64,000 nucleotides of DNA from Leptolyngbya sp. FACHB-321 (GTDB lineage Bacteria; Cyanobacteriota; Cyanobacteriia; Leptolyngbyales; Leptolyngbyaceae): contig NZ_JACJPI010000041.1 of assembly GCF_014695975.1 (NCBI RefSeq), positions 1 through 64,000 of the forward strand. Direction: 5' to 3'. The position numbers and the translations under genes were made by a program. Shown here one piece after another: positions 8,423 through 17,867 of this stretch; position 1 is the first letter of the stretch, and each line of letters opens with the position of its first letter. Under the pieces are notes generated by a model. It made no database searches and was not told where the DNA came from. It saw only the letters and a list, made by a program, of their open reading frames with translations.

Positions 8423-8461
8423 GAGGCTTTCAGTCAGCACATCAGTGCTCTTTGAAGCCTC
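8423..8461. terminator. Bidirectional Rho-independent terminator
   Basis: Inverted repeat GAGGCTT...AAGCCTC between two convergent genes. It is preceded on plus by an A-run (a T-run for the minus strand), so it should stop topA-strand transcription and probably also transcription from the acidic protein gene. Confidence 0.6.
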
Positions 8462-8486
8462 GCATAATAATTAGACTAAACAAGCG

Positions 8487-10271
8487 CTACTTAGCAGCAG
8501 TAGCCTTACGCTGTAGTTTAAGTTGGGCGATCACTGACTCAGCTTTGTCAAGCGATGGCGCAAATGTTTGGTTGTAGAAATCAACTAAAAAGGTTTGCCA
8601 ATCCAACTTGCCAGACGCAATTTGGTCTAGTTGAGATTCCATTTGAGCTGTGAATTTCGGACGCACTAGATCAGGAATAACAGCATCCAGAAAGGACATT
8701 AGTTCCATGCCAGTTGGAGTCACAACTAACTTACCTTTTTCCACCTGGACATAGTTACGGTCTTTCAAGGTTTTGACCGTGCTGGCATATGTAGAAGGAC
8801 GACCAATGCCCTTCTTTTCCATTTCTTGAATCAAGCGTGGTTCCGAGAAGCGACCGGGTGGGGACGTGCGTTTTTTGTCAGCTTGGACTTTAACACTAGT
8901 CATCATTTGACCTTCTTTAACAGCAGGCAGCACTGAATCACCACTCAGGTTGTTCCAGTACTTGGTGTAGCCAGGGAAGGTTAGCACCTGACCACGAGCC
9001 TCCCAATTTGTTGTGCCGGACTGTAGCAGCACTTTCGTTTTAGCTATCAGTGCGGGTGCTGCTTGTGTAGCGATCGCCCGCCGCCAAATCAGGTCATACA
9101 GTTTGATTGCCTCTGCTTTGCCGTTCCCCTTCAACTTTTGAAAAGGCGCTTCAGCCAGAGACTGAGCCTTCTCTGCTGTCATTGCGCAATCAGTAGGACG
9201 GATTGCCTCGTGAGCTTCCTGAGCACCGTCCTTGCTTTTATGTTTTGCCGTTTTTGCAGGCACATTTGTCGGGTCTGTCTGCTGGAGGTATGCCAGGGCA
9301 GCCTCACAGAAGCTAGCAGACAATGCCACTGAGTCAGTCCGCATATACGTGATCATGCCTTGCTCATAAAGCACCTGAGCCAACTCCATCGTCCGCTCTG
9401 GGGCTAATTTCAGGAGTGCCCCTGCTGCTTGCTGCAAAGAGGACGTAGTAAACGGTGCTGGAGCATTGAGCGTGGCTTGCTGACTCTCAACCTTCACAAT
9501 TTTATGAGGCTTAGACTGCGCCTCTGACACGATTTGAGCCGCTATTTTAGGGTCTGTAATACGGTCAGACTCTGACTCTTTAGCTTCCTGTTCTTCAGAG
9601 ACTGCTGCTTCAGTGTCTTGGCTACCCGCTTTAGACGCACGGTACAGCGCTTTGAACCCTTCAGGGTAGGTTGCTGAGAGTGTGAAGTAGTCTTCTGGCT
9701 TGAAGGCACGAATCCGCAGCTCTAGAGAAGCCAACAACCACAGTGCTGAGGATTGAACACGACCCATTGACTTAGCACCAATGTCCAATGCCCACACAAT
9801 CCGTTTGGTGCCAGAGTAGCCCACCATTTTGTCCAGGTGTGCTCGTCCTAAAGCAGCGCCCACAAGATCAACGTCTAGCTTGCGTGGGTTCGCCAACGCT
9901 TTTTGAATCGCGTCCTTCGTGATTTCCTGGTAGACCACGCGATCAGGGTTCTTCAGCTTCAACTCCTCAGTTAGATGCCAGGCAATGCTTTCACCTTCGC
10001 GATCGCCGTCTGTCGCCAGAACAACTCGGCGACCTTTCATTTCCTGCTTAATTGCACTCAGGTTTTTCTTTTTGTCTTTGGAGACTTCCCAATTTGAGAC
10101 TACTTTAGAGCCGTGAATGTCGAACCCACGGCTGTCTTCGCCGGAATCCCCAAGTTCACGAATGTGACCGACGCTCGCTTTAACCACAGCGTCTATGCCC
10201 AAGTCCTTGCAGTACTTCGTAATTTTCTCGCGCTTACCGGGAGACTCAATGATGAGCAGTAGCTTTTCCAT
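8487..10271 (-). CDS. topA: DNA topoisomerase I, short plasmid-type form
   Basis: Type IA topoisomerase, which relaxes negative supercoils through a 5'-phosphotyrosine link. I start it at ATG 10271 (MEKLLLIIESPGKREK) because the Toprim domain begins there; the listed TTG start adds 27 unlikely residues. Toprim motifs IIESPGK (Glu9) and ATDGDREGE (about 87-95) are intact. The active-site tyrosine is in QGMITYMRTDS (Tyr309), and the usual RFSEPRLIQEMEKKGIGRPSTYA motif follows. At 594 aa it ends right after domain IV and lacks the C-terminal zinc-finger or basic repeats of chromosomal TopA. That fits a plasmid-borne paralogue, together with dnaX and holB on the same replicon. Confidence 0.93.
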   Translation of the reverse strand: MEKLLLIIESPGKREKITKYCKDLGIDAVVKASVGHIRELGDSGEDSRGFDIHGSKVVSNWEVSKDKKKNLSAIKQEMKGRRVVLATDGDREGESIAWHLTEELKLKNPDRVVYQEITKDAIQKALANPRKLDVDLVGAALGRAHLDKMVGYSGTKRIVWALDIGAKSMGRVQSSALWLLASLELRIRAFKPEDYFTLSATYPEGFKALYRASKAGSQDTEAAVSEEQEAKESESDRITDPKIAAQIVSEAQSKPHKIVKVESQQATLNAPAPFTTSSLQQAAGALLKLAPERTMELAQVLYEQGMITYMRTDSVALSASFCEAALAYLQQTDPTNVPAKTAKHKSKDGAQEAHEAIRPTDCAMTAEKAQSLAEAPFQKLKGNGKAEAIKLYDLIWRRAIATQAAPALIAKTKVLLQSGTTNWEARGQVLTFPGYTKYWNNLSGDSVLPAVKEGQMMTSVKVQADKKRTSPPGRFSEPRLIQEMEKKGIGRPSTYASTVKTLKDRNYVQVEKGKLVVTPTGMELMSFLDAVIPDLVRPKFTAQMESQLDQIASGKLDWQTFLVDFYNQTFAPSLDKAESVIAQLKLQRKATAAK

Positions 10272-11529: not shown

Positions 11530-11885
11530 TCAATCACCGCTTGGCTGACCTTGCCAGCCGTAGAATGCCAGTAAGAGCGCAAACACTAAGAGCCAAGGCT
11601 TAAGTAAGCAAAAATAAACATAGGGCTGAATCATCAGTTGTAAGTTGTGGAAGCGACTCGTCCAACTGCATGATGAATGCCAGCAAGCATGAGCACGAAA
11701 TTTCTCAATGAACGGCTCTTGAGGGGCAGCCTTGCCAGAATTTAGCCCGCTGCATGGTAAGCTCACCAGCAGATAGGCACTACTGACGCTTTCCCACCAC
11801 CGCTCTATCTGGATATAATGCGTCACTCGATAATCCGCCCACCCTAACTTGTCTCGAGCGAAATACCGCAGCCTTGCACCTTTAC
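11530..11885 (-). pseudogene. C-terminal remnant of an IS701/IS4-type transposase
   Basis: Reading past the listed GTG, the frame continues upstream as LRYFARDKLGWADYRVTHYI then QIERWWESVSSAYLLVSL. This matches the conserved C-terminal block of cyanobacterial IS701-like DDE transposases (IERWW...SAYLLVSL, and NLQLMIQPYVYFCLLKPWL near the end). The frame hits a TAG near 11891, so only the last ~115 residues remain and the catalytic residues upstream are absent. A dead fragment, and the left border of the cassette region. Confidence 0.7.
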
Positions 11886-11927
11886 ACTAAAGTTGGGTTT
11901 GTTGCTGAACGCTCGCGGTGGCAAGGG

Positions 11928-12011
11928 GGCGTCAGCTTTGGCTTGAAATGCCGTTGTAGCAACAGCCCAAGCAACTAGCTGCACCGGCATACATTCAAGC
12001 TAGCGTTAGGA
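11928..12011 (+). repeat. attC-like site F (degenerate)
   Basis: Arms GGCTTGAAATGCCG and CGGCATACATTCAAGC pair as L''/L' with a 2-nt bulge, followed by GTTAGGA as an R'-like box. The matching R'' is poor. It is the weakest of six attC-like sites but sits where the left end of the array should be. Confidence 0.45.
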
Positions 12012-12152
12012 GGCATCGGTTATTGCAGCCGGTAACCACAAGCGTCATGCCACTTACATTATGGGTGGCGACGGTAGTTAAGCATCCCTCTGTGAGTTCC
12101 ATCCGTCAAGTTTTGTGTTTGGTTAGGGTGAGTGTTTGTCAGTCTCAGTCAC

Positions 12153-12608
12153 TTAGCGCTTCGCATAAGCAACTAACGCAACGCCTAAAACCACCAGTAC
12201 AGCGCCTGCAATGCGTGTTGGGCTAGCGGGATACTTTGCCAGCCCAAGCGCGCCGTAGTGATCCAGCAAGAGGGCGGCAATCATCTGACCGGCGATCGTC
12301 AGCGCCAGTGCCAGCGCGGCTCCAATCCTCGGTGTGGCGAAAATGGTGGACCAGACATACAACGTGCCTAAGCAGCCGCCCACCCACATCCACCAAGCGG
12401 TTTGAGCCAGCGTCGTTGCAGCGGGAAGGGGAGACCGTGCAGCGACGCAAAGCGCGAGTGATGCTAAGGTGCCGGCAAGATAGGAAATAAATGTCACCTG
12501 CATCGGTTCACCCACATAGCGCCGCAACAGCGTGTTCAGCGCCACTTGAATCGGTAGAATAGCGCCGCCAACCAACGCCGCCAGCAGGTAGAGCGTTCGT
12601 CCATGCAT
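12153..12608 (-). CDS. DMT-superfamily permease, DUF606/YdcZ type
   Basis: A 151-aa, very hydrophobic protein with about five transmembrane segments (LYLLAALVGGAILPIQVAL; FISYLAGTLASLALCVA; WWMWVGGCLGTLYVWSTIFA; GAALALALTIAGQMIAALLLDH; IAGAVLVVLGVALVAYA). Its length and the N-terminal ...AALNTLLRRYVG-type motif fit the small DUF606 branch of the drug/metabolite transporters, which often work as inner-membrane exporters of small solutes. It is divergently transcribed from a marR gene across 119 bp containing a MarR-type palindrome. The inference is a self-regulated efflux cassette. Substrate unknown. Confidence 0.85.
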   Translation of the reverse strand: MHGRTLYLLAALVGGAILPIQVALNTLLRRYVGEPMQVTFISYLAGTLASLALCVAARSPLPAATTLAQTAWWMWVGGCLGTLYVWSTIFATPRIGAALALALTIAGQMIAALLLDHYGALGLAKYPASPTRIAGAVLVVLGVALVAYAKR

Positions 12609-12629
12609 CGTAGAACCTCTCGTTCGATT

Positions 12630-12647
12630 TATCTTGATATTGAGATA
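12630..12647. promoter_or_regulatory. MarR-type operator palindrome
   Basis: TATCTTGATATTGAGATA is a near-perfect inverted repeat between the divergent permease and marR genes. A related half-site TTGATGTCAAGATA lies at 12679-12691. MarR proteins typically bind 16-20 bp palindromes in such intergenic regions. Inference from position and symmetry. Confidence 0.6.
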
Positions 12648-12727
12648 CTTGAAGGTAAGATTATTCTAGAAGTTCTTTTGATGTCAAGATAGTTAGGAGC
12701 CAGAAACTTTGATGAGTGCATGGGACG

Positions 12728-13219
12728 ATGGAACTTGATCCAGTCGATCAGATTTTGGGGCAATGGCAGCGAGAACGTCCTGATTTAGATGTTTCACCCA
12801 TGGGCATCATTGGGCGCATGGGGCGGTTAGCCAAGCACTTAGAACGAGCCATTCAAAAGACATTTTCAGACTTTGGTTTAACCGCTGGAGAGTTTGACGT
12901 GTTAGCAACGCTCCGTCGTTCTGGTGAACCGTACCAACTGTCACCCACCGCGTTGTTTCACACGCTCATGGTTTCATCAGGGACGATGACGCATCGTCTT
13001 GATCGCTTAGAACAAGCTGACCTTGTGAGGCGTACTCCTGATCCAAGCGATCGACGAGGCACGCTCATCATGCTGACAAATGCAGGCTTGACGCTGATTG
13101 AGAAGGCTGTTGAAGCGCATGTTGCTAATGAACATCGCCTTCTTAGCGTTCTGGAAGCACCAGAACGTGAAGCACTCATCCTCTTGCTTCGTAAACTGTT
13201 AGTTTCGTTCGAGGAGTAG
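12728..13219 (+). CDS. MarR-family transcriptional regulator
   Basis: I prefer ATG 12728 (MELDPVDQILGQWQRERPDL); the family usually starts with this DPVD.I..QW.RERPD block. The winged helix is visible: helices LTAGEFDVLATLRRSG and LSPTALFHTLMVSSGTMTHRLDRLEQADLV, then the wing RTPDPSDRRGTLIMLT, and a C-terminal dimerisation helix. It probably represses itself and the divergent permease, relieved by a small ligand. It carries no attC of its own: the next one is interrupted by the group II intron just downstream. Confidence 0.9.
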   Translation: MELDPVDQILGQWQRERPDLDVSPMGIIGRMGRLAKHLERAIQKTFSDFGLTAGEFDVLATLRRSGEPYQLSPTALFHTLMVSSGTMTHRLDRLEQADLVRRTPDPSDRRGTLIMLTNAGLTLIEKAVEAHVANEHRLLSVLEAPEREALILLLRKLLVSFEE

Positions 13220-13315
13220 CCGTTGCAACTCATTGAAGGCTGTTTCAAGTTGAGCGCTAAGCGCAGCAAGGCAACAGAATCGGGTCGAGGAAGGCATTTA
13301 ACCTTCCCCTCCCAC

Positions 13316-13347
13316 ACCACCCATCATGCGGGTCCGCAATGGGCGGT
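13316..13347 (-). ncRNA. Group II intron domain V
   Basis: On minus, ACCGCCCATTGCGGACCCGC continues to ATGATGGGTGGT. The arms ACC.GCCCAT and ATGGGT.GGT pair around GCG/CGC, the compact hairpin expected for the catalytic domain V, about 30 nt after the maturase stop. Confidence 0.75.
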
Positions 13348-13377
13348 TCATGACGATGCGCAAACAAGACTGATGAC

Positions 13378-14712
13378 TTAAACGTATCCTTGAACCTTCA
13401 TCCAAAGTTGTTTAATCGCTAGCAATCCCTGTTGCTCTAACCACTCATTCGTCATTCCCGTATGCGTTGCTAACGTCTTTGACAAGCGCCAATAGCCTTT
13501 ACGACTAATGCCCGTCCAAATCGCCTGACGCTTTGTTGTCCCGAGTTTGAGCAAGTTGGTGATGCGGGTTCTGGGTCTACGCCACTGCTTCCAGTAACAC
13601 ATCCGAATCCGCCGCCTCAACCAACCGTCTAACGCCTCAATGGGACTGTAATGTTGGGAAATGCCGAAGTAGTTCATCCAGCCTCGTAGGTATCGATTCA
13701 ATCGCTCGATTCGTGCTGCCATTGAGACTCCCCAACTGCGTGAGGTTAACCCCTTCAGTCGGTGTTTGAAGTCTTGCAGAGCTTGGCTAGAGGTAAAGAT
13801 CCGAATGCCCCGGAAGGTAAATCCCAGGTATTCGAGGTCTTCGATCCTGACCACCCGACTTTTCTCGCGATTGACCTTCAGCTTCAGCTTTTGGGTTAGG
13901 TAACGGCTAATGTTCGCCATCACCCGTCGCCCTGCCCGTCTACTTTTGACCAGGATCACCAGGTCATCCATATAACGGACAAAGTGATGCCCTCTCGCTT
14001 CAAGCTGTTTGTCGAGATCGTCCAACAGGATATTGGACAATAACGGTGATAAGGGCGACCCTTGCGGCGTCCCCCAGTCCGTCGCCTCAATCGCGCTACC
14101 GACTAACACCCCTGCTCTCAGGTAACGACCTATCAGCCTTAAAAGCACTTTGTCAGTGACTTGCCGGGCAAGGCGGGACATCAAGACATCGTGGTTGACC
14201 GTATCAAAGAATTTCTCTAGATCCAGGTCAACCGCATACCGATAGCCCTCTTTAACAAAGGTCTTCACCTGCCGGATGGCACCGTGAGCAGAACGTTTGG
14301 GTCGGCTCCCAAAACTTGACTCGGAAAATCCAGGGTCAAAGATGGGAGTCAGCACTTGCAGAATGGCTTGTTGGATCACCCGGTCAACGACACAAGGGAC
14401 TCCCAACTTTCGCTCTCCCTTGCCGTGGGGCTTGGGAATGACCACCCGTCGCACGGGACGCGGTTGGTAGTTGCCATTCATCAGGGATTGGCGAATCTCA
14501 CTCCAATGCTCCCGCGCATGGGCTGGGAAATCTTCCAAGGTCATTCCGTCACTGCCGGGTGCCCCTTTGTTCGATTTCACTCGTTCCCAGGCTCGTTTCA
14601 CATTGTCGCGCTCTAAGATTCGCGCCATCAGGTTGTCTAAGGCTGGCTCTCTGTCAGCACGCCAAACCCCATCTCCCCCATGCGGGTTCATTGATGAGCT
14701 TGAGTTGTTCAT
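13378..14712 (-). CDS. ltrA: Group II intron reverse transcriptase/maturase
   Basis: This protein helps the intron RNA fold, splice and reverse-transcribe into new sites. RT motifs are intact: RRVVIPKPHGKGERKLGVP, SSFGSRPKRSAHGAI, AVDLDLEKFFDTVNH (about 160-174), GTPQGSPLSPLLSNI and the catalytic YMDD at 247-250. The maturase domain follows (LNRYLRGWMNYF, RRRIRMCYWKQW). There is no HNH endonuclease domain, as in the class C lineage. At 444 aa it appears full length, and no frameshift is visible, so the element may still be mobile. Confidence 0.93.
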   Translation of the reverse strand: MNNSSSSMNPHGGDGVWRADREPALDNLMARILERDNVKRAWERVKSNKGAPGSDGMTLEDFPAHAREHWSEIRQSLMNGNYQPRPVRRVVIPKPHGKGERKLGVPCVVDRVIQQAILQVLTPIFDPGFSESSFGSRPKRSAHGAIRQVKTFVKEGYRYAVDLDLEKFFDTVNHDVLMSRLARQVTDKVLLRLIGRYLRAGVLVGSAIEATDWGTPQGSPLSPLLSNILLDDLDKQLEARGHHFVRYMDDLVILVKSRRAGRRVMANISRYLTQKLKLKVNREKSRVVRIEDLEYLGFTFRGIRIFTSSQALQDFKHRLKGLTSRSWGVSMAARIERLNRYLRGWMNYFGISQHYSPIEALDGWLRRRIRMCYWKQWRRPRTRITNLLKLGTTKRQAIWTGISRKGYWRLSKTLATHTGMTNEWLEQQGLLAIKQLWMKVQGYV

Positions 14713-15217
14713 GGCTCCTCCTTAGTTCATTCATGTTTGTCCCTTCGCTCCCACAAGGGGAACTACTATGGACTCTGCTGACTTCTGTAAGGCTGGACGG
14801 CAGGAGTTTCCTCCTGTCGGGCTGTTCTCGCAGCTTTAGGGTTCTGTGGCTTCCTAACCGTTTCCAGCTAGACCTCAATCAGGCTCCCATGACGGCTTGA
14901 ACCGCTTCCTTACAGACCTCCCCAGATAAGAACGTGAACTGTCCCTGCACAACCGCGTCATTTACTGTGTTCCCTGAACCAGACGGCTTCGTTGTGTTGT
15001 GCCAACTCGCCCCAAGAATCTCAGCCTTCTATGACGTTTCTGTTCGTCGGCTTGCAGGTTTGCCGCTGGCTTCCTTCAGACCCTTCCTCACGGAAGCGCC
15101 CTTGCCTTAGGCTAGTCGTTGTTGTCACTCGGCTCCTATCACTTTCGAGCATTTGGACACTGGTTCTCCGACAGGGGACTTTCACCCCATTAGTTCACGC
15201 CCATGCTGGGCGTACAC

Positions 15218-15294
15218 AAATTGTTGGAGCGGCAAACAGAGCCTTTTCGCTTTGTTTCGGTGTTGCTTGTCGCCGCTCAACGGCAGCGTTATGC
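15218..15294 (+). repeat. attC site A (3' part; its R'' lies across the intron at 13270-13275)
   Basis: ATTGTTGGAGCGGC (L'') pairs with GCCGCTCAAC (L'), followed by GGCA and R' = GTTATGC. R'' (GGCAAC) is on the far side of the group II intron. The same GTTATGC(C/G)GCTT...GTGGC-type sequence recurs after sites A and D. Confidence 0.7.
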
Positions 15295-15397
15295 GGCTTC
15301 GGTTATGGATGGTAGCTGTAGTTTAAAGGCAAGCTGTTTTTGTTGAGTGCTAAGTTAGATTCCTAATGCATCTTCATCAGCTTCATGAGACATTGCA

Positions 15398-16156
15398 ATG
15401 GAGTCACGTATTCAGTCGTACCTACGTGTTGCAGCTAGCCATCAACGCGATACAGAGCGCATTGGTTCCTTTCTCGCTACCTTCTCTCGTTCCAACGCTA
15501 ATCCTTTCCTCAACTACGCGATTCCCGATGACAACGCCACACCATCACTGGCAGATGTGATCGCTCTGATCGCTGCCTACGAGAAACGTTTGCGCAAACC
15601 GCGCTTAGAGTATGTTGCACAGTTAGCCCCTGCGGTTGAAGGGGTGCTGATGGATGCGGGCTTTCACGTTGAAGGACGTCTGCCGCTCATGGCTTGCGCT
15701 CCTGGTTCAGAGCAAGGCCTGCCCGTTCCTTCAGGGATCGAGTTGATTTTGCCAGCTTCTGATGCTGATCTGCTGGCTACAGTCGCGGTTCAGAACGAAG
15801 CGTATGGTGCTCCTCCTCCAGACTCCGCCGCGATCGCCCAACTGCAACACAGCCTTGAAGTCGGTGGAATCGCTGTTTTAGCTCGAATGGAGGCAACCGG
15901 TGAACCTGTGGGTGCGGGTGTCTGTACGGTTCCTTATCATCAAACAACGGAAATTGCAGGTATTGGTGTGCGTGCAGCCTTCCGCCGTCGAGGTGTGGCA
16001 GGAGCGCTGACAACTCGATTGGTACAAGAAGCGTTTACGGCAAACATTTCAGTCCCCTTCCTAATGGCAGCACATGAAGCGGAGGAAAGGCTTTACGCGC
16101 GTGCAGGGTTTGCTGTCGTTGGCAAGATCCTACATATCTCGCGCCCAATAACGTAG
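15398..16156 (+). CDS. GNAT-family N-acetyltransferase (cassette gene)
   Basis: 252 aa. The C-terminal half carries the acetyl-CoA signature: beta4 ...TTEIAGIGVRAAFRRRGVAGAL (motif A, R-x-x-G-x-G/A variant) and the closing ERLYARAGFAVVG motif. The N-terminal half (residues 1-100) is a less conserved second GNAT-like lobe. It transfers an acetyl group to an amine; substrate unknown. It sits alone in plus orientation between attC A and attC B, so by position it is a single-gene cassette. Acetyltransferases are among the commonest cargo of integron arrays. Confidence 0.85.
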   Translation: MESRIQSYLRVAASHQRDTERIGSFLATFSRSNANPFLNYAIPDDNATPSLADVIALIAAYEKRLRKPRLEYVAQLAPAVEGVLMDAGFHVEGRLPLMACAPGSEQGLPVPSGIELILPASDADLLATVAVQNEAYGAPPPDSAAIAQLQHSLEVGGIAVLARMEATGEPVGAGVCTVPYHQTTEIAGIGVRAAFRRRGVAGALTTRLVQEAFTANISVPFLMAAHEAEERLYARAGFAVVGKILHISRPIT

Positions 16157-16187
16157 ACAATGACAATTAAGCCTGTCAGCGATGGCA

Positions 16188-16275
16188 GCATAACAAAGCC
16201 CATGCACACCGACCACCGAGCGGTTATCCTTGGAAATCCAAGGAGCTTTGCAGCGGGTGATGGGCACCGTTATGT
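16188..16275 (+). repeat. attC site B (strong)
   Basis: R'' GCATAAC and R' GTTATGT frame an imperfect hairpin: CATAAC-AAA-GCCCAT-g-CACACC against GGTGATGGGC-ACC-GTTATG. The unpaired G in the 5' arm is the extrahelical base typical of attC sites. Total length 88 bp. Confidence 0.85.
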
Positions 16276-16295: not shown

Positions 16296-16856
16296 ATGGA
16301 GATCACTACAACCTATAAAGCAGTGGATAGAACCGCATGGCGTTCTTGGCTTGAGCAACATCATGCTACAACCAAGGAGATTTGGTTGTTGTTTGATGAT
16401 GTTCCTGAGGCCTTAACTATTTCCTACCTTGATGCCGTTGAGGAAGCAATTTGTTTTGGTTGGATTGACAGTGTACAAAAACGCTTCTCAACCCATGAGC
16501 GTGTTCAGCGATTTACGCCTCGGAAAAAGCGAAGTAACTGGACAGAATTAAATAAGGAACGTGCTTGCCGTCTGGTTCGATTGGGCATGATGACTGATGC
16601 TGGATTTGCAACGCTCCCTGATCTAACCGCCAAGTTTAAGGTTCCCAAAGATATTGTTGAGGCACTTAAGGCAGAACCTGATGCTTGGTCTAACTTCCTT
16701 ACATTCCCCGCTTTGTATCGGCGAGTACGCATCGGATATATTGAGAAAATACGAAAAAATCAAAGCGAATTTGAGCGGCGACTTCGGAATTTTGTGAACA
16801 AAACTGCCCGCAACCAAATGTTTGGCAATTGGAATGATCAAGGAAGACTTATTTAA
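16296..16856 (+). CDS. YdeI/OmpD-associated-family protein (cassette gene)
   Basis: A 186-aa single-domain protein with the family pattern: N-terminal W..WL..HH....E.WL (RSWLEQHHATTKEIWLLF), then the hallmark YLDAVEEAICFGWIDS, QRFTPRKKRSNWTELNK, and a C-terminal helical segment rich in Arg/Lys. The biochemical role of this family is not settled; some members bind DNA-like or stress ligands. It starts at ATG 16296, 21 bp after the R' box of attC B, and ends 25 bp before attC C, which is textbook cassette geometry. Confidence 0.88.
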   Translation: MEITTTYKAVDRTAWRSWLEQHHATTKEIWLLFDDVPEALTISYLDAVEEAICFGWIDSVQKRFSTHERVQRFTPRKKRSNWTELNKERACRLVRLGMMTDAGFATLPDLTAKFKVPKDIVEALKAEPDAWSNFLTFPALYRRVRIGYIEKIRKNQSEFERRLRNFVNKTARNQMFGNWNDQGRLI

Positions 16857-16880: not shown

Positions 16881-16967
16881 CATGGCAACCGCGATGCACC
16901 GGAACTTTGGAGTAAGCTAGCTAGTACCCGGAGTTGTCTGAGTCCGGTGATCGCGAACGTTATATGG
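16881..16967 (+). repeat. attC site C (strong)
   Basis: CATGGCAAC...CGCGATgCACCGGAAC pairs with GTCCGGTGATCGCG...GTTATATG. The central CGCGAT(g)CACCGGA/TCCGGTGATCGCG match is 12 of 12 with one extrahelical G. R' = GTTATAT. Confidence 0.85.
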
Positions 16968-17003
16968 CTTGAGTTATCTGTGGGGACGTACACTTATTTA
17001 TTG

Positions 17004-17807
17004 ATGGCTGAAGATTTTTCTGTTGCTCAAAAGCTTGGCTGTGATAAGTATGCGCTAGACAACTGCATTCTTGTTAAAGCCCCCGTTGAAGCTGTCAACA
17101 CTGTTGTTCAGCAATCTTTTGGGTTTGAGGTGCGATCTCATTGCAAGCTTGCTGACTATGTTGATGCCAATAAAGCTTCATGGAAGGAAGTTGAGCGACA
17201 TCGACAAGTTAGAAACTTAAGACCTAATAAATCGCTACCTCCAATATTGTGGGCAGTTCCGTTTTGGCGATATCTCAAGCACCAGTGGGCTATTTTGCCT
17301 CTTTCAGGTACAGAAGAATCGATTGCTTTTGCATTAGCGCTACTCTTAAATACTGATGTCATTACCTTTCATGATTCTCATCATGCTTCTTTCAATGAGT
17401 TCAAGGTTTTTCGCAGAGATCGACTCGTTGAGCATTATTTATTTGGATTTGAATGTGGAAAAGACTTTAAGGATGGTTGGGACATCAAGCTAGAGGACTC
17501 TGAGTTTGACACTTGGAGCAACTATGAACATCGATTCAAAAGCTCCATCAGGCAAGTTTCCGAAGCAGAATTAAGAGCGGCATTTTTAGCAAGGAAACAT
17601 GACAGGGACAACAGAGGTTTTCTAGATGCTTGCCTTAAGTATTACAGCGCTTACATTCCGCTGAAGGAGGAAACTCCATATCACTATCATGGTGAATGGA
17701 ACTCAGATTTCCAGAAATGGGACTCAACTGTGGAAAGGATGGATATGATGGTCATACCGCCTAATTGGGGTTACGCTGATTGGAAAATAATCGATCGCAG
17801 CACATAG
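17004..17807 (+). CDS. Hypothetical protein (267 aa), cassette gene
   Basis: I use ATG 17004 (MAEDFSVAQKLGCDKYALDN); the listed start lies inside the R' end of attC C. No ribosome binding site is obvious. The protein is soluble, with mixed alpha/beta character and many aromatic residues (ILWAVPFWRYLKHQWAILPL, YHYHGEWNSDFQKW). It has no signal peptide and no catalytic motif that I recognise. Codon usage looks more AT-rich than the neighbours, consistent with a transferred cassette. Its stop codon lies within the 5' edge of attC D. Confidence 0.75.
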   Translation: MAEDFSVAQKLGCDKYALDNCILVKAPVEAVNTVVQQSFGFEVRSHCKLADYVDANKASWKEVERHRQVRNLRPNKSLPPILWAVPFWRYLKHQWAILPLSGTEESIAFALALLLNTDVITFHDSHHASFNEFKVFRRDRLVEHYLFGFECGKDFKDGWDIKLEDSEFDTWSNYEHRFKSSIRQVSEAELRAAFLARKHDRDNRGFLDACLKYYSAYIPLKEETPYHYHGEWNSDFQKWDSTVERMDMMVIPPNWGYADWKIIDRST

Positions 17808-17867
17808 CACGAAGCTTTTAGTGGTGAGTTCGATGTTACTTGCATCCGCTGAACGCAATCGTTATGC
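17801..17867 (+). repeat. attC-like site D
   Basis: CATAGCAC as a decayed R''; GCTTTTAGTGG pairs with CCGCTGAACGC (two G-U pairs); R' = GTTATGC. 67 bp. The 3' flank GTTATGCCGCTTGAG resembles that of site A. Confidence 0.6.

Follow-up and report, generated by a model that had tools for sequence, protein, structure and literature searches.

The question raised by this locus is what interrupts the end of a marR gene cassette in Leptolyngbya sp. FACHB-321, and whether the interrupted site is an attC. In the window, the 64,000-nucleotide stretch of contig NZ_JACJPI010000041.1 analyzed here, the minus strand of 13279-15215 was found to be a full-length group IIC intron of 1,937 nt that splits an attC R'' box (Table 1). 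Introns that interrupt the attC of a cassette array are already known; this one belongs to a cyanobacterial branch whose reverse transcriptase (RT) active site is altered in an unusual way. A single attC, available both with and without its intron, shows that IIC-attC introns occur in Cyanobacteria and proves the target at the level of single bases.

Table 1 Features of the intron, the split attC and the surrounding cassettes (positions in the window)
Feature	Position	Strand	Details
Group IIC-attC intron	13279..15215	-	Starts GUACGCCC.., ends ..CCCGAU; ends from consensus over 60 homologous junctions, empty-site alignment and tandem copies
Intron domain I (part)	14931..15097	-	Rfam group-II-D1D4-3
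Intron domains II-IV (part)	14740..14821	-	Rfam group-II-D1D4-1
Domain V hairpin	13316..13347	-	ACCGCC..GGGUGGU, CGC triad position; RNA fold; conserved in homologs
Domain VI and intron 3' end	13279..13314	-	Candidate branch A in ACCCGAU
Intron-encoded protein, 444 aa	13378..14712	-	RT and maturase X; catalytic motif YMDD
EBS1 (ACAA)	14997..15000	-	Loop GCACAACA; same loop in class 1 integron IIC-attC introns
IBS1 UUGU, end of 5' exon	15216..15219	-	Pairs with EBS1 ACAA
IBS3 U, first 3' exon base	13278..13278	-	T after CCCGAT in nearly all homologs
Cassette interrupted at 3' end	12044..13278	+	ydcZ (12153-12608, -) and marR (12716-13219, +), divergent pair; Pfam DMT_YdcZ, MarR; R' repeats at 12044 and 15288
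attC R'' left part ACAGA	13274..13278	+	Completed by AC 15216-15217; empty site L096 and marR orthologue L103 read GCAGAAC
Rest of split attC	15216..15294	+	AC of R''; L'' 15223-15235 with extrahelical G; L' 15270-15281; R' GTTATGC 15288-15294
Next cassette	15288..16269	+	GNAT acetyltransferase 15398-16156
attC after GNAT gene	16188..16275	+	R'' GCATAAC, extrahelical G, R' GTTATGT; bottom-strand DNA fold z = -3.5
attC after YdeI/OmdA-like gene (16296-16856)	16882..16965	+	Extrahelical G, R' GTTATAT
R' end GTTATGC of degenerate attC after 286-aa unknown gene (16947-17807)	17861..17867	+	R' junction repeat

The intron and its protein

The minus strand matched the Rfam models group-II-D1D4-3 (131 bits) and group-II-D1D4-1 (54 bits), and domains V and VI gave a stable RNA fold (z = -5.95), with CGC at the triad position of domain V, as expected of IIC introns, and ACCGCC conserved across homologs; assignment of the ribozyme to class C by this triad draws on the Rfam D1D4 matches, the domain V fold and the conserved ACCGCC. 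The 3' end, ACCCGAU, fits the class C consensus AXX(X)XRAY, and the 5' end, GUACG, departs from GUGYG at one base, which counts against the assignment; the plasmid IIC-attC introns and most other members of the clade share this difference. The target also has the features of class C, namely a short EBS1-IBS1 pairing (ACAA with UUGU), a T at +1, and a bulged hairpin upstream in place of IBS2.

The intron-encoded protein matched only RVT_1 and GIIM in Pfam and group_II_RT_mat in NCBIfam (405 bits), and its nearest match in the PDB was GsI-IIC (6ar1, E = 1.5e-135). An earlier note on this DNA had described a maturase lacking an endonuclease domain, which the Pfam matches bear out; the note had also counted this lack as a trait of IIC-attC introns, but it is shared by the whole of class C. 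Its assignment of the element to class C and to the IIC-attC introns agrees with the GsI-IIC match, the CGC position in domain V, a GT/T junction in the bottom strand of R'' (here and below the slash marks the point of insertion) and the antisense orientation. Judging by a dN/dS of ~0.1 between this protein and its relatives, it is evidently under purifying selection. The element is very probably an intact member of the IIC-attC lineage of class C group II introns, and is probably mobile.

That the intron is instead an immobile relic, kept in place by descent, seems unlikely. Only one full copy is present in the FACHB-321 genome and a 5'-truncated relative on contig 75 indicates that decay occurs, but the RNA is complete, the reading frame is open and its dN/dS is low, the orthologous cassette of another genus carries no intron, and the relatives occupy different attC sites. 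The remnant on contig 75 of the same genome (10427-10707; L114, L132) is that of a related class C intron.

The split attC and its intron-free orthologue

Joining the sequences on either side of the intron restores the site ..GGCAACAGA/ACAAATTGTTGGAGCGGC.., in which R'' is ACAGAAC and the complementarity of the L arms extends over 12 bp, leaving one base extrahelical (bulged). R'' pairs with R' (GTTATGC) at six of seven positions, compared to five of seven for the version of R'' in the earlier note, which had placed the intron in the R'' box; the insertion is indeed inside R'', but the box is ACAGAAC, split as ACAGA/AC, and not GGCAAC. The restored attC scored 18 in a structural scan in which shuffled sequence gave ~4 sites of score >=15 per 64-kb strand. 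On the bottom strand, R'' reads GTTCTGT, which departs from GTTRRRY, and the minimum-energy fold of the restored bottom strand alone, as single-stranded DNA, did not recover the expected R/L arms.

An empty-site orthologue, which the earlier note had proposed to look for, was found as a natural intron-free site in genome G028, from another genus of the same family (L096/L111). GCGGCAGAACAAATTGTTGGAGCGGC follows its marR orthologue, which is 93% identical at the DNA level, the empty site ...GGCAGAACAAATTG... aligns base for base across the intron junction, and the last base shared with the window lies in R' (GTTA), where a cassette would be expected to cross over. Another marR orthologue (L103) also reads GGCAGAAC, and R'' is thus [AG]CAGAAC. 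The split attC is thus more than chance, by its scan score against shuffles and by its intron-free orthologue. In G028 (L111, contig 41, ~8450-9790), the orthologous ydcZ/marR/attC cassette is part of a prophage head operon, flanked on one side by a portal-side gene and on the other by the gene for the head protease; no uninterrupted phage site was found for this prophage cassette, and a second phage copy in G028 has a different insert of ~1 kb there.

The cassette array

The intron is on the minus strand and the marR, GNAT and YdeI-like genes are on the plus strand, confirming the earlier description of the intron as antisense to the cassettes. The R' junctions at 12044, 15288, 16959 and 17861 share ~45 nt, and each ranked first after the training sites in leave-one-out scans of ~128,000 positions; the site at 16269 was not top-ranked, yet is a clear attC, and the hairpin of the degenerate attC near 17861 folds no better than shuffles. 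Since an automatic attC scan of the whole window gave too many chance hits at lower scores, the cassette boundaries rest on the R' repeats and the orthologues. The array runs on upstream, with a GNAT-like remnant and an attC-like site at 11850-12044, before the ydcZ/marR cassette. No integron integrase over the cut-off was found in the FACHB-321 genome (assembly of 91 contigs, 97% complete) and, with two or more attC sites, the array is therefore a CALIN. Across this cyanobacterial family such integrases are frequent: 29 of the 42 genomes searched (FACHB-321 being one of the 42) have one over the curated cut-off.

Terminators are the main target of class C introns (PMC4424553) and a hairpin is present upstream of IBS1, so the intron might have gone in behind an intrinsic terminator hairpin that follows marR, and not into an attC. 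This is highly improbable, as one base of the hairpin is extrahelical and a GCATAAC box flanks it, attC repeats stand at the cassette boundaries, the empty orthologue keeps the same attC, and attC targets are common to the nearest relatives. The earlier note had taken the intron as independent support for the attC reading; because class C introns also insert after terminators, this argument is only suggestive, and the empty orthologous attC and the neighboring attC repeats are the stronger proof of an attC.

Splice boundaries

The 5' junction reads as a ..TTTGT/T-type IIC-attC target, with the intron placed after the GT and before the T of the bottom-strand R''. The ends at 13279 and 15215 follow from the intron-end consensus, the EBS1/IBS1 pairing, the class 1 integron junctions, the tandem copies and the empty site. 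EBS1 offers ACAA for IBS1 UUGU, so the 5' exon must end in UUGU. In homologs fetched from genome contigs, sequence is kept up to ..CCCGAT, followed by a near-constant T and then divergence, and the introns begin with GTACG or GTGCG directly after ..GT. The GT/T junction was present in at least 46 of 60 distinct homologous junctions, which is a lower bound because at some loci the script called the 3' end at a spurious CCCG motif further upstream. The same ends and GT/T junctions were found in class 1 integron introns from Providencia and Klebsiella plasmids (L116, L117), and a planctomycete contig (L076) carries three head-to-tail copies joined as ..CCCGAT/GTACGCCC.. (GTACG start) with nothing between. 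When the window was compared by BLAST with the genome that has the empty site, two blocks aligned, 12120-13279 and 15216-15291, which meet at one target base; this single shared base leaves 13280-15216 as the sole alternative, and the consensus (..RAY/T) decides for 13279-15215. The predicted spliced-exon junction on the minus strand is ..AACAATTTGT/TCTGTTGCC.. The three tandem class C introns of L076 (1353-7430) are ~99% alike and have no exon sequence between them; a junction in L092 is similar.

The excision given in the earlier note, 13276-15217, misses the left end by 3 nt and the right end by 2 nt, and its R'' box, GGCAAC, is wrong as a consequence. Those ends have next to no chance of being correct: excision there would likewise restore a plausible attC with an AAC box (score 17 versus 18), and GGCAAC is present as R'' in another attC of the array, but homologs end in ..CCCGAT before T, EBS1 would face AUUU with no pairing, GAT runs straight into GTACG in the tandem copies of a relative, and the empty site, reading CAGAACAAATTG, contradicts them.

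Proposed mechanism

Splicing, recognition of attC hairpins and endonuclease-free priming are behaviors of the intron family summarized in PMC7923331 and PMC4424553. By analogy, the intron RNA would be transcribed from its own strand, folded with the help of the maturase, spliced, and remain bound to the protein. The RNA-protein particle would recognize the bulged hairpin of an exposed attC bottom strand, where EBS1 ACAA would pair with IBS1 UUGU and EBS3 with the next T, and reverse splicing would take place between GT and T of R''. With the endonuclease absent, cDNA synthesis would be primed from the replication fork. Forward transcripts of the cassettes carry the intron in antisense and so cannot remove it by splicing. 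As the R box cannot form while the intron is present, this attC should recombine poorly or not at all with an integrase.

Lineage and comparison with known introns

In a tree of 87 intron-encoded proteins, the window protein groups with those of attC-inserted introns, and GsI-IIC and a Clostridia intron stand apart (100/99, tree drawn at the midpoint root). An attC-type bulged hairpin, defined as an AAC box with a stem of at least 7 bp and one bulge, precedes 51 of 67 homologous 5' junctions, versus 8.4% of 3,000 random positions from the same loci. The 19 cyanobacterial rows (15 distinct) form one clade (100/100), and in all cyanobacterial members (13378-14712 and L016-L026, L033, L082, L087 and L105-L108, the motif of L020 having been read separately) the variable position of YxDD is M, V or I, whereas 68 of 68 other relatives have YADD. 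A tentative reading is that the cyanobacterial IIC-attC introns are a separate lineage, in a host family rich in integrons, in which the RT swapped the otherwise invariant YADD for YMDD, YVDD or YIDD, a change that may alter fidelity or processivity. Natural RTs with M, V or I at this position are thus available for comparison with their YADD relatives. The literature covered on integron-associated class C introns does not mention cyanobacteria; the key IIC-attC papers lie outside that scope, and we make no claim of priority.

The introns of class 1 integrons (L116 from Providencia and L117 from Klebsiella), which we take to be relatives of S.ma.I2 by their setting and not by comparison with the S.ma.I2 sequence, likewise encode an RT-X protein, lie antisense to the cassettes, start with GTACGCCC, end in ACCCGAT, interrupt attC R'' at GT/T and have the EBS1 loop GCACAA. 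They differ from the window intron in their protein (53% identity; YADD in place of YMDD), in their arrays, which have an intI1 gene where the window array has no integrase, and in R'', which is GTTRRRY at their sites and GTTCTGT in the window. GsI-IIC from Geobacillus (6ar1) has the same class C RT/maturase architecture as the window protein, but falls outside the attC-targeting group in the tree and has YADD. The class C introns of Leptolyngbyaceae and related cyanobacterial families (L016-L026, L033, L082, L087), at 84-90% identity for the closest, have the same ends and Y[MVI]DD. An attC-type hairpin was present in 12 of 13 cyanobacterial 5' exons tested, the window included, and each of these cyanobacterial relatives lies in a different attC.
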